IMG/VR virus record: IMGVR_UViG_3300027779_000081
Span: 1-35,921 of that record
Strand: one strand, 5' to 3'
DNA: 35,921 nucleotides
Source: a virus
This document shows positions 32,868-35,921 of this stretch, in pieces. Position numbers and translations under genes: made by a program. Each line of letters starts with the position of its first letter. Position 1 is the stretch's first letter. The notes below the pieces were generated by a model. That model searched no databases. It saw only the letters and a list, made by a program, of their open reading frames with translations, and was not told where the DNA came from.

Positions 32868-32883
32868 TTATACATCCTCCCTA
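32864..32883 (-). repeat. 20-bp gene-junction repeat, copy 1
   Basis: TCATTTATACATCCTCCCTA occurs exactly here and at 33581-33600. On the minus strand it encodes the C-terminal REDV and stop of one gene, contains the next gene's ribosome-binding site AGGGAGG, and ends with its ATG. Confidence 0.9.
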
Positions 32884-33116
32884 ATTATTTTTATATCTCC
32901 ACAATCTAAATCACTCGGTACATTGTTTAAATCAAGTTCACCTGACTCAATTAAATGAGTTAAATATCTAATGACATTTATATCTTCGTCAAATTTATCT
33001 ACATTGCAGTATTTTTTGTTAAAATAATCATCATTTTTATACTTAGCTATAGCTTCACTATCAAAATAACGCTCACTTATTTGTACTGTTATTATTACTT
33101 CTTTAATTTTACTCAT
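32868..33116 (-). CDS. Unknown acidic protein ending REDV (82 aa)
   Basis: An 82-residue protein (MSKIKEVIITVQISERYFDSEAIAKY and on) with alternating strands and helices, no recognised family. Its leader is repeat element A with the ribosome-binding site AAAAAGGTG. Its last four codons REDV are shared with the otherwise unrelated 55-residue gene at 33585-33752. Confidence 0.6.
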   Translation of the reverse strand: MSKIKEVIITVQISERYFDSEAIAKYKNDDYFNKKYCNVDKFDEDINVIRYLTHLIESGELDLNNVPSDLDCGDIKIIREDV

Positions 33117-33205
33117 AGTATTTTCACCTTTTTAGTTAGACTTAATTGTCTAGGACTAGGGGAAATAAATCCCCTAGTTTCTGGATTAACCTTCATCAAC
33201 TAGAC
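33114..33205 (-). ncRNA. Structured leader element, copy A
   Basis: First of three related elements. On the minus strand, outer arms GTCTAG (33200-33205) and CTAGAC (33148-33153) enclose a hairpin of ACTAGGGGA and TCCCCTAGT (33170-33178, 33155-33163 in window coordinates). Compared with copies B and C, two pairs of the outer stem and one pair of the inner stem have changed on both sides so pairing is kept. The stop codon of the upstream gene (33186-33188) lies within the element. The last part is the leader CTAAAAAGGTGAAAATACT plus start codon of the next gene. Confidence 0.75.
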
Positions 33206-33584
33206 TGTAGACTGTATATTGTCCTTCATGTTCAACATCATATTCAAAGTTATTTAATAGATTATCCCAGCCAGATATTAAGGGAGTCTGGTAGCTATCA
33301 TCTATGTAATCCCAGAGCATACCATCACTAGCATTTAAGCCTATGTTGTTTTCCTTCTCATCAATCCATGCTGAAAAGTATTTATACTCTTTGCCTGTAT
33401 TAAGATTCTTAGTTCCTATTCTAACCAAATTATCCCTATAACCTTCTGGTTGATAACTGCTGACAAGGGGTATTTCCTCACCAGCATCACAAACCTTGCG
33501 ACAGAATGTAGAAACTTTAGAAACTAAAATCTCAAAGGCTGGATATAATTCGTGGTTTTTATTTATATCTGAATGAAAAATCAT
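33186..33584 (-). CDS. Unknown acidic protein (132 aa)
   Basis: A 132-residue protein with aromatic and acidic residues (YFSAWIDEKENNIGLNASDGMLWDYIDD), no recognised family. Its ATG follows directly on the stop of the 55-residue membrane protein gene, using the ribosome-binding site in the 20-bp junction repeat. Its last 18 bases, including the CTA GTT codons, form part of structured element A. Confidence 0.55.
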   Translation of the reverse strand: MIFHSDINKNHELYPAFEILVSKVSTFCRKVCDAGEEIPLVSSYQPEGYRDNLVRIGTKNLNTGKEYKYFSAWIDEKENNIGLNASDGMLWDYIDDSYQTPLISGWDNLLNNFEYDVEHEGQYTVYSLVDEG

Positions 33585-33600
33585 TTATACATCCTCCCTA
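33581..33600 (-). repeat. 20-bp gene-junction repeat, copy 2
   Basis: Identical to 32864-32883. It joins the end of the 55-residue gene (REDV stop) to the start of the 132-residue gene and supplies the ribosome-binding site AGGGAGG. Confidence 0.9.
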
Positions 33601-33752
33601 GTTAAAGCTTCTAAAATTAAAGCTAATTTTCTGCGCCTTTCTAGCTCGTCATAGTCAAGGTCTCCAACCTCGATAGTTGCCGTAGCCATCCAGATTCCAA
33701 GAGCTATTATAGCTAGTGCTGTTAATCCAAATAATATATTTAATATAATCAT
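33585..33752 (-). CDS. Small single-span membrane protein (55 aa)
   Basis: MIILNILFGLTALAIIALGIWMATA is a clear N-terminal membrane segment, followed by an acidic then basic helix (DLDYDELERRRKLALILEAL) and the end TREDV. Its leader is structured element B with the ribosome-binding site AAAAAGGAAG. No family recognised. It is the first gene of the second module. Confidence 0.65.
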   Translation of the reverse strand: MIILNILFGLTALAIIALGIWMATATIEVGDLDYDELERRRKLALILEALTREDV

Positions 33753-33846
33753 AGTATCTTCCTTTTTAGTTAAGCTTTATTGCCTAAGATTAGGGGAACT
33801 GAATCCCCTAATTTCGGATATTGAATCCTTCATCAGTTAGGCTGAT
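33750..33846 (-). ncRNA. Structured leader element, copy B
   Basis: Same design as copies A and C. In window coordinates the outer arms are GCCTAA (33782-33787) and TTAGGC (33837-33842). The inner hairpin is ATTAGGGGA/TCCCCTAAT (33789-33797, 33804-33812). There is a local hairpin ATCAG-CTGAT whose five-base loop is the outer-stem strand. The upstream gene's TAA stop lies in that loop, so the local hairpin and the outer stem compete or form a pseudoknot. Confidence 0.75.
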
Positions 33847-34343
33847 ATGTTGTAAAAATCATTCCTCTCTAATTGAATTTTAGAAGCTCTGATAATATGT
33901 TTTAGCTTTGCCCTGTAATAGTAATCTAGTTTGGTTTTTGCTTGCTCTTGTGTGGCTATAATTTCCCAGCTCTCACTAATTGAGCCTGAATCTTCATCAG
34001 CTTGGTTTTTATAATAATCATCAAGGTATAAAAATTCGTTGCTTTCATAGTCTCTTTTTTGGCATTTAAAAATTATATTATTTTTTACAACAGTATCAAA
34101 AGCTCCAAAATTTTCCCTAAACTCAATCGTATATAAATATTCAATATCGCCATGCTGTTCGGTTGTTATCCTGTAGGCGTCATCTTTTAAAATGTCAGCT
34201 GTAAGCTCATGAAAATCATAACAAGATTTCTTTAGTTTCTCGGCTAGGTCATGCCCTGTTTCAGAGGGGTAGCCGTCAGAGTGTCTGTAAATCCAGATTA
34301 TAGAATCGCCATTTATTAGTTTTATATTTGCTCGTGTACTCAT
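33837..34343 (-). CDS. MSTRANI-type conserved phage protein (168 aa)
   Basis: Opens MSTRANIKLINGDSIIWIYRHSDGYPSETG and later has DIEYLYTIEF. This N-terminal MSTRAN...IYRHSDGYP pattern is shared by a widespread set of phage and plasmid proteins of unknown function. A helical C-terminal part follows, ending NISA. It lies directly after ardC, and its leader is structured element C. It may be part of the anti-host set by location. Confidence 0.7.
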   Translation of the reverse strand: MSTRANIKLINGDSIIWIYRHSDGYPSETGHDLAEKLKKSCYDFHELTADILKDDAYRITTEQHGDIEYLYTIEFRENFGAFDTVVKNNIIFKCQKRDYESNEFLYLDDYYKNQADEDSGSISESWEIIATQEQAKTKLDYYYRAKLKHIIRASKIQLERNDFYNISA

Positions 34344-34438
34344 AGTATTTTCACCTTTTTAGTTAAGCTTTATTGCCTAAGATTAGGGGAAATGAATCCC
34401 CTAATTTCGGATATTAAATCCATCATCAGTTAGGCTGA
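34341..34438 (-). ncRNA. Structured leader element, copy C
   Basis: Third copy. In window coordinates the outer arms are GCCTAA (34375-34380) and TTAGGC (34430-34435), the inner hairpin is ATTAGGGGA/TCCCCTAAT (34382-34390, 34397-34405), and the local hairpin is ATCAG/CTGAT (34425-34429, 34435-34439). The ardC stop is inside it. Copies B and C are close in sequence; copy A is diverged but shares the first 28 bases exactly with copy C. Confidence 0.75.
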
Positions 34439-35434
34439 TTTTTTAACCTCCTCTTTTGGCTCTGGTTTAGCTATCTTTAAGCTGGTGTTATCCAGAAAGA
34501 ATTGACTCGCCTTGCTGGCTTTATTCATAGCCTTGATGATGGTTCTTGGGTCATCTTTAAGGGCATCATTCCAGCTTTTAATATAGCTTGTATGATTGAG
34601 GGCTGGCGTTGGTTCAAGTCCAGTATGTCCAGAAATAAACACGCTTGTAAGCTCTGCGATAAGTTCTTCAAAAGCATAATTCTCATTGCCAAATTTATTG
34701 CCTAGCGGTCTATTGAGTCTAGATTCGTGACCTGTTGAATGCCCTATCTCATGGAATAGAGTCGCAAAGTAATTTTGCTCTGCCGTTGCATCCTTAGTAT
34801 CTATAAAATCGGCAAGGGCTGGCATACCTATAACATCAGAGCCAGAGTTGTAATAAGGTGAGCGATTGCCACCGATTCCAGTCATGCCTATATTTTGGCT
34901 GGTAAGGTATTCAGTAGCCCAAATATCACAAAGTGTATTTGTAAACTCTACTGAAAAAGAGGGTTTTGGTGCATAGCGTTTGGAATCACTAGCAAGGTTT
35001 TTATCTTTATCAGCAACTTGCGAAGCATTAAAAACATTGTAAACCTTGTAAATAAAGTATTTGAACTCTGATTTACCAGTTTCTACGTTATCCTCAAAGA
35101 CATATTTAGCAAAAATTACGGGTACGCTTTTTGAACCTTTTTGCACAAAGTAACCCTTGGTTTTCCAGTTCTTAAAAGTACCCCAAACGTTTGAGTCATA
35201 ACCTAAACCAGAAGCCATAGACGATAGGTGGAATTGATTCCATCCGTTGTAAATAGTACCATCTTGATTTTGTGGTAAATTATCTTGACCGCCTCTGCCA
35301 ATTTTCCAGCCCTTCGACCAATGACCTGTACAGTCAGAATTGATAGCGTCAATAATTGTTTGAGTCATGTAGCGCTCAATTTCCTTTTTGACCGCTGAAC
35401 CTTTTAAGCCTTTTATTTTTAATTCGTTTTTCAT
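34430..35434 (-). CDS. ardC: ArdC-like antirestriction protein
   Basis: A 334-residue protein of the ArdC family, which protects incoming DNA from restriction and binds single-stranded DNA. The N-terminal domain (about 15-140) has HWSKGW, the pattern YNGWNQFHLSS, and W.TFKNWKTKGYFVQKGSKS followed by FIYKVYNVFNASQ. The C-terminal part is a zinc-metalloprotease-like domain with LFHEIGHSTGHESRL (HExxH at 228-232) and AFEELIAEL (255-263) offering the third ligand. It is the first gene of the accessory operon, right behind a strong promoter, so it would be made early at entry. Ribosome-binding site TAAGGA. Confidence 0.88.
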   Translation of the reverse strand: MKNELKIKGLKGSAVKKEIERYMTQTIIDAINSDCTGHWSKGWKIGRGGQDNLPQNQDGTIYNGWNQFHLSSMASGLGYDSNVWGTFKNWKTKGYFVQKGSKSVPVIFAKYVFEDNVETGKSEFKYFIYKVYNVFNASQVADKDKNLASDSKRYAPKPSFSVEFTNTLCDIWATEYLTSQNIGMTGIGGNRSPYYNSGSDVIGMPALADFIDTKDATAEQNYFATLFHEIGHSTGHESRLNRPLGNKFGNENYAFEELIAELTSVFISGHTGLEPTPALNHTSYIKSWNDALKDDPRTIIKAMNKASKASQFFLDNTSLKIAKPEPKEEVKKSA

Positions 35435-35479: not shown

Positions 35480-35508
35480 CTTATAATTATTAAATAAACA
35501 TAGGTCAA
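35480..35508 (-). promoter_or_regulatory. Early leftward sigma70 promoter
   Basis: On the minus strand TTGACC (35503-35508) and TATAAG (35480-35485) are separated by exactly 17 bases; each matches the consensus at five or four of six positions. Transcription would start near 35473, about 40 bases before the ardC start. It is the strongest promoter-like sequence I found. Confidence 0.75.
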
Positions 35509-35530: not shown

Positions 35531-35772
35531 ACCATGAACAACCAAAACAGCCCAGACTGGCAGAGTTCAGCCATAATACAGCTAAAACTTTTTTTTAACT
35601 ATTTTATTGATAAGATGTTTGCAGATGTTGCAATCGAATCAAAATTTACACGTTTGCAAACATCTGCAACAAGTTGCCAACAAGTTCAGACTGGCGGAGT
35701 TCTGCGGTTTTATTCTCTGTTTGTGCAAAGATGTTGCAAGAATGGCAATTACAAGAGTGCAAACAACCTCGA
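35531..35772. repeat. Non-coding control region with iteron-like repeats
   Basis: No convincing gene. GATGTTGCAA occurs at 35624-35633, 35730-35739 and 35794-35803, with variants (TGTTTGCA 35616, TTGCAAACA 35654, TGCAACA 35665). TGTTTGCAGATGTTGCAA (35616-35633) and TTGCAAACATCTGCAACA (35654-35671) form an imperfect inverted repeat with two single-base bulges. CAGACTGGC(A/G)GAGTTC occurs directly repeated at 35553-35568 and 35687-35702. Such clustered repeats beside a divergent promoter pair suit a replication origin or a multi-site operator region. Confidence 0.6.
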
Positions 35773-35921
35773 TATATCCTTTAGGATATAGAGGATGTTG
35801 CAATGTTGCGGATGTTTTAACGTTTGTTTTTTGTGCCTATTTTATTTATAATTAATTAATTTAAAAAGGAATCGAATCAGATGGCTGGACAAAAAATAAC
35901 TAGGCAACAGTTAAAACATAT
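35770..35921. repeat. Terminal direct repeat, right copy
   Basis: Second copy of the terminal redundancy described at 1-152, with the palindrome at 35773-35790, the TATAAT -10 at 35847-35852 and the ribosome-binding site at 35865-35872. Confidence 0.95.
35881..35921 (+). CDS. terS: Small terminase start, repeated partial copy
   Basis: The first 41 bases of the small terminase gene, identical to 112-152, cut by the end of the window. It is not a separate gene but the result of the terminal redundancy. Confidence 0.9.
   Translation, partial: MAGQKITRQQLKH

Follow-up and report, generated by a model that had tools for sequence, protein, structure and literature searches.

Three repeated elements (copies A, B and C) on the minus strand of a viral DNA stretch of 35,921 nucleotides (IMG/VR record IMGVR_UViG_3300027779_000081, positions 1 to 35,921; the whole stretch is called the window) are almost certainly hammerhead ribozymes, as judged by their core, stems and predicted cleavage site. 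The best explanation for their presence, and a likely one, is that these type I hammerheads process the leftward operon of a marine phage by self-cleavage at its stop/start junctions.

Identification of the hammerhead elements

The elements were located on the minus strand at 33114-33205 (copy A), 33750-33846 (copy B) and 34341-34438 (copy C). Sequence comparison confirmed the preliminary description in that these are three related leaders, each placed between a stop codon and the ribosome-binding site (RBS) of the next gene. The similarity between copies B and C is about 95%, and the figure for copy A is 64% (ungapped). From B and C to A, one pair of the inner stem is changed on both sides (ATTAGGGGA/TCCCCTAAT to ACTAGGGGA/TCCCCTAGT), and so are two pairs of the outer stem (GCCTAA/TTAGGC to GTCTAG/CTAGAC), exactly the three two-sided changes reported before.

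Read as minus-strand RNA, copy C is GCCUAA-CUGAUGA-U-GGAU-UUAAU-AUCC-GAA-AUUAGGGGA-UUCAUU-UCCCCUAAU-C^UUAGGC, and the order of elements in copy B is the same. The helix order of the copies is stem I, core C3-A9, stem II, G12A13A14, A15.1 opening stem III, U16.1, C17 and stem I again. Register scan, covariation and folding place the three helices in register with the chain ends at stem I. The outer stem described earlier corresponds to stem I and the inner hairpin to stem III, so this part of the layout stands; stem II had been overlooked, as had the catalytic core and the predicted cleavage site. The statement that no described RNA family has this layout was not supported, as the core, stems and predicted cleavage site point to a type I hammerhead. 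A new RNA family was rejected on the basis of the hammerhead core and register.

The predicted type I hammerhead of copy C occupies 34375..34435 on the minus strand (register scan). Stem I (34435-34430/34380-34375) is followed by the core CUGAUGA (34429-34423) and one extra U (34422), stem II (34421-34418/34412-34409, loop UUAAU) by GAA (34408-34406), and stem III (34405-34397/34390-34382) by C17 (34381). From the register of the core, cleavage is predicted between 34381 and 34380, which would give a 37-nt 5' leader ahead of the ATG at 34343. Copy B (33782..33842, minus strand, register scan) has stem I at 33842-33837/33787-33782, the core CUGAUGA at 33836-33830 with one extra A at 33829, stem II at 33828-33825/33819-33816, stem III at 33812-33804/33797-33789 and C17 at 33788, with a predicted cut before 33787. 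The additional base that copies B and C have after A9, ahead of stem II, is a minority form, found in about 10 of the 230 elements described below. Copy A (33148..33205, minus strand) was assigned as a variant hammerhead by register scan, gene-order comparison of relatives and core survey. Its stem I (33205-33200/33153-33148) is followed by the core UUGAUGA (33199-33193, C3 to U), a weak stem II of two pairs in AGGUUAAUCCA (33192-33182), stem III (33178-33170/33163-33155) and C17 (33154). A stem II variant, AGGTTAATCCA, with two pairs and an A opposite A beside the core, recurs in four elements of three phages (L006 at 5308, L116 at 1068 and 1680, and the window at 33182-33192).

Copies B and C match every conserved position (C3 U4 G5 A6 N7 G8 A9 / G12 A13 A14 / A15.1-U16.1 / H17), and copy A departs from the conserved core at position 3 (U3). 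For each of the three copies, the minimum-energy fold of a transcript ending with stem I was the hammerhead. Covariance model R1, built from alignment A2 of other phage lineages only and holding no sequence of the window's clade, detected copy B with 49.2 bits (E 5.8e-9) and copy C with 48.6 bits (E 7.7e-9). Copy A was not found by R1, even at E 10. Since B and C are found by a model free of their clade, and since their relatives covary massively, the resemblance of these two copies is not due to chance. Copies B and C are very probably active ribozymes; copy A, with U3 opposite G8, is probably impaired, slow or dead.

Searches against Rfam at its own cut-offs called no family in the window or in 15 loci. 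With relaxed limits, copy C matched RAGATH-1-hammerhead (RF03152) with 33.1 bits and E 0.007, and relatives reached at most 42 bits, below the threshold of 56.3 bits. The gathering threshold of Hammerhead_1 (RF00163), 34 bits, was reached neither in the window nor in the 15 loci, the best score being 31.5 in L051.

Relatives, covariation and core conservation

A pattern that fixed the core and stem II, with stems I and III left free, matched at least 120 viral stretches in a scan of IMG/VR, a collection with many fragmentary and some redundant contigs. Among the matches listed, 128 of 138 distinct sites also had stems I and III in register (each at least 5 bp, plus U16.1 and H17), against 1 of 690 flank-shuffled controls, and stem I was exactly 6 bp in 135 of these 138 sites. 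Relatives of the 168-aa protein encoded between copies C and B occurred in seven viral contigs, each of which carried one to three canonical hammerheads next to the relative. A collection of 230 distinct elements from 110 loci was assembled, from which identical elements were removed and in which related ones remain. The absence of further copies, or stems that are not preserved, had been named beforehand as evidence against a selected structure; hundreds of copies with their stems kept were found.

The covariation score was 0.763 for a first alignment, compared with 0.151 when shuffled and at most 0.140 when slid, and 0.770 for a second alignment, compared with 0.184 and at most 0.162. Because the elements were selected for having stems, the evidence lies in the compensatory changes and not in the percentage paired. 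RNAalifold recovered the same hammerhead fold unprompted. Taken with the counts of stems in register, these results strongly support the earlier proposal of a selected RNA structure with compensatory changes.

Conservation of the core was surveyed with the stems required and the core left free. The core was intact in 185 elements, had one change in two (one of them copy A) and two changes in another two; this ratio is partly biased, as many elements were found via the core pattern, although further elements in the same loci were not. Both cores with two changes belong to L033 (core UUGAUAA, 6354 and 7390, plus strand), where U3 occurs with A8 in place of C3-G8, a covariation within the catalytic core. 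U3-A8 is a known covarying core pair that was reported to be active (PMC3088659). Outside the core, an A was present at position -7 in 97% and at +7 in 90% of the elements, and a closing G-C pair in about 92%. The pentaloop of stem II is mostly U-N-A-N-U. All these features would fit a tertiary contact between stem I and loop II, with the loop being partly fixed by the search pattern.

The preserved core also bears on whether the elements are catalytic at all. A structured leader without catalysis, such as a protein-binding site, a translational regulator or a terminator, might merely resemble a hammerhead, and such a leader would agree with the lack of any Rfam family above cut-off and with the changed core of copy A. 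This is very improbable, however, as the core, U16.1, H17 and the helix registers are kept in hundreds of sequences with otherwise free stems, and as neither a T run behind stem III nor a terminator was found. A transcription terminator as such was rejected: there is no T run after stem III, and the terminator scan of the operon gave no terminator-like site.

Organization of the operon

The first gene of the operon encodes an ArdC-like antirestriction protein (34430..35434, minus strand; Pfam ArdcN 8e-22 and MPTase-PolyVal 3e-34; PHROG anti-restriction match 1e-70), and it ends at the TAA (34432-34430) that completes the 5' strand of stem I in copy C. It is followed, on the same strand, by the gene for the 168-aa protein of unassigned function (33837..34343), the TAA of which ends the 5' strand of stem I in copy B, and by the genes for a 55-aa protein downstream of copy B (33585..33752), a 132-aa protein upstream of copy A (33186..33584, stop in the stem II region of copy A) and an 82-aa protein downstream of copy A (32868..33116). 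The remaining gene junctions of the operon are without a ribozyme. The operon probably starts from TTGACC-17-TATAAG (35480..35508, minus strand), a possible sigma-70 promoter recognized by eye upstream of the ArdC-like gene; the promoter scan did not report it, since the rule of the scan demands T at position 6.

The ends of the window overlap (1-152 against 35770-35921, with 150 of 152 bases identical and the last 126 exact), and the record is therefore probably a complete genome, circular or terminally redundant, though it is classed as being without end repeats. Between two divergent gene sets, 35613-35665 contains an inverted repeat (AGATGTTTGCAGATGT / ACGTTTGCAAACATCT) and repeated GATGTTGCA words, which could be operators or origin iterons.

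Placement at gene junctions and distribution

The ATG of an open reading frame of at least 30 aa was present within 60 nt of the predicted cut in 210 of the 230 elements, compared with 32% for random same-strand positions. The distance from the predicted cut to the next ATG had a median of 26 nt over all found. In most cases, the stop codon of the upstream gene overlaps or adjoins stem I. It supplies the final three bases of the stem I 5' strand in 50 elements, as it exactly does in B and C, and sits at the first base of that stem in 24; it is a TGA within the core in 26 and falls in or near stem II/loop II in 22.

The preliminary description had suggested that the folding could sense ribosome passage. 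As a regulated ribozyme, the element would be kept from folding by a ribosome terminating at the stem I stop, and the downstream gene would be freed once translation upstream is absent or the ribosome gone. Stops that overlap stem I, the core or loop II, in the numbers given above, agree with this, as does the TAA ending stem I in B and C, and a stop in or beside stem I was found family-wide. The stops are spread over about 25 nt, however, which looks more like space-saving packing against the stop. The ATCAG/CTGAT hairpin on which the suggestion drew is present in B and C as described, but by folding it is the structure taken up by the 5' fragment after predicted cleavage, and in full form it occurs only in part of the window's clade. 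It was rejected as a general feature, as position -8 is C in only 23% of the elements. Coupling to the ribosome is thus considered doubtful.

Copies of the element are clustered, with up to 14 per record among 42 records searched whole, and the 53 loci with more than one copy all carried them on a single strand. Several one-strand hammerheads divide single genes or short blocks, as in the gene-flanking clusters of prophages. The genes downstream are short (median 88 aa), and the named functions among the families listed are antirestriction proteins and DNA methyltransferases, with one member each. Nearly every short gene is preceded by its own hammerhead in L051, a 22-kb record with 14 copies, and the same is seen in L130, an Aliivibrio MAG contig of 5.8 kb with nine hammerheads, which is probably a phage contig in the bin. 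This contig gave the one occurrence of the exact pattern in 84,980 bacterial and archaeal genomes, and the group is essentially viral at exact-pattern stringency.

Single copies were found in three isolated phages, namely Methylophilales phage MEP301 (63.8 bits), Flavobacterium phage elemoB (55.1 bits) and Pelagibacter phage Jormungand (48.7 bits). No hammerhead was present in the genome of HTVC115P or in the scanned parts of HTVC011P, CRP-804, MW202879 and MW202801. A DNA search of close named phages with the operon gave no match, and no relative of the 168-aa protein was found in named phages. A blast match in Vibrio phage 2 TSL-2019 was rejected, as it lies inside a gene and has no hammerhead.

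Between the ardC gene and the gene for a 116-aa protein, hammerheads mark the borders at which modules are exchanged, lost or inserted (L081 2777-3995, L004, L006, L007 and L116). The elements might be mainly repeated gene-boundary sequences that serve the swapping of small accessory genes by homologous recombination, with cutting tolerated or secondary. Ribozymes are kept at the borders of swapped modules in related phages: with H for a hammerhead, the gene order is ArdC-H-168-H-55-132-H-82-116 in the window, ArdC-H-168-H-55-132-H-116 in L004 and ArdC-H-55-132-H-new-H-116 in L081, in a comparison where the gene clusters are rough and the p82 label is polluted. The ribozymes flanking the new gene of L081 are 100% identical, the first two of L004 are 98% identical, and 22.5% of the elements in multi-copy loci have their nearest relative within their own locus, against 1.3% with shuffled labels. 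For over three quarters of the copies, however, the nearest relative is in another locus. Homology for recombination alone would not conserve a catalytic core (185 intact against four with one or two changes), and it explains neither the compensatory changes in the stems nor the covariation from C3-G8 to U3-A8. Recombination as the main function is unlikely, somewhat less so than the coupling to the ribosome; a role in recombination may exist alongside processing, but cannot explain the conservation of the core.

Hairpins of the predicted cleavage products and proposed processing

At the 5' end of the predicted downstream product, copy C has the hairpin UUAGGC-AAUAAA-GCUUAA (34363..34380, minus strand), the first strand of which is the 3' strand of stem I. 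A corresponding hairpin is located at 33770..33787 in copy B and, as cUAGAC-AAUUAA-GUCUA, at 33137..33153 in copy A, if that copy is cleaved (both minus strand). The computed energies of these hairpins were -4.4 to -4.6 kcal/mol. The 3' strand of stem I must match both the 5' strand of stem I and the strand of the downstream hairpin, and this three-way matching is a feature of the clade. A 6-bp hairpin at the 5' terminus was found in 22 of 227 elements; as a family-wide feature it was rejected, being clade-limited.

Processing by self-cleavage would proceed as follows. In the nascent polycistronic RNA, the ribozyme would fold and cleave its own chain behind C17, leaving about 35-37 nt ahead of the next start codon. 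The strong stem III hairpin would then form the end of the upstream message, presumably carrying a 2',3'-cyclic phosphate, and in copies B and C the 5' strand of stem I would be trapped in the ATCAG/CTGAT hairpin of this product. The downstream message would start with a 5'-hydroxyl, and in the window's clade its first bases would refold into the hairpin directly before the RBS. With both products trapped after cutting, re-ligation would be disfavoured and cleavage should therefore be one-way. Cuts at C and B would release the messages for the 168-aa and the 55/132-aa proteins. Messages that are short or carry a single gene would result, protected at both ends and produced without a need for host nucleases. 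As copy A looks impaired, not every junction need be cut.

Beyond the hammerhead identity, covariation, core conservation and gene-junction position established by computation, we infer cleavage in the cell, protection of the ends and an effect on expression. A role of the hammerheads in mRNA processing is favoured, with less confidence than the self-cleaving explanation of the window's junctions. In E. coli, the three hammerheads that surround ardA of Agrobacterium were reported to cleave in vivo (PMC3088659), and RiboJ, an engineered hammerhead with a 5' hairpin, raises the transcript about twofold in E. coli (PMC6206723).

Relation to known hammerheads

The elements share with Hammerhead_1 (RF00163) the order stem I-CUGANGA-stem II-GAAA-stem III-UH-stem I, the open end at stem I and the conserved core. 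In contrast, they score below its cut-off, their stem I is almost always 6 bp bounded by A on the 5' and on the 3' side, and their stem II carries mostly the U-N-A-N-U pentaloop. RAGATH-1 hammerhead (RF03152), the best family match of copy C, has the same core and a short stem I, but the 5' hairpin of its model aligns to the coding sequence of ardC, where there is no conserved hairpin.

Clustered hammerheads are known to flank single genes in prophages, including the antirestriction gene ardA of Agrobacterium tumefaciens, and operon processing was proposed by the authors (Perreault et al. 2011, PMC3088659). Those clusters and the lineage described here have in common that more than one hammerhead surrounds single genes, an antirestriction gene included, and the polycistronic RNA of the Agrobacterium set is cut in vivo. 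Those clusters are bacterial or prophage loci, whereas the present lineage belongs to environmental phage contigs, forms a different sequence group and shows tight stop-ribozyme-start packing with up to 14 copies in 22 kb. For HHphage of the haloviruses HF1/HF2, the 5' end of an mRNA was located close to where the ribozyme cleaves (Perreault et al. 2011, PMC3088659). It too is a hammerhead that immediately precedes a start codon, here of a lytic dsDNA virus, but a single variant ribozyme of an archaeal virus, in contrast to the many copies with a canonical core found here. RiboJ, a synthetic insulator consisting of the sTRSV ribozyme and a 23-nt hairpin (PMC6206723), is a functional analogue of the layout of the window's clade, with a hammerhead, a 5' hairpin and then the RBS. 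Its hairpin is engineered and separate, whereas in the window's clade the first strand of the hairpin is shared with stem I.

The hammerhead class and the gene-flanking arrangement were thus known already (Perreault 2011, PMC3088659). What is added here is the lineage and its scale among environmental phages, a fixed geometry of stop, ribozyme and start, a stem I of strictly 6 bp between flanking A's, a group invisible at Rfam cut-offs and the putative product-trapping hairpin of the window's clade. No paper describing this lineage from marine phages came up in the literature searches; coverage of subscription journals was thin, and an earlier description is possible.

The purpose of bacterial and phage hammerheads has been a question since their discovery around 2011. 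Because the group is large, junction-bound, multi-copy and strand-consistent, and occurs in isolated phages, the splitting of phage messages is directly testable by 5'-end RNA-seq. Rfam cut-offs miss what is a common ribozyme group of environmental viruses. Tentatively, a compact type I lineage below these cut-offs, packed between short accessory genes, may punctuate operons with ribozymes; as a widespread phage strategy, this could provide end-protected, monocistronic mRNAs independently of the host, with the ribozymes also acting as joints for the swapping of gene cassettes.
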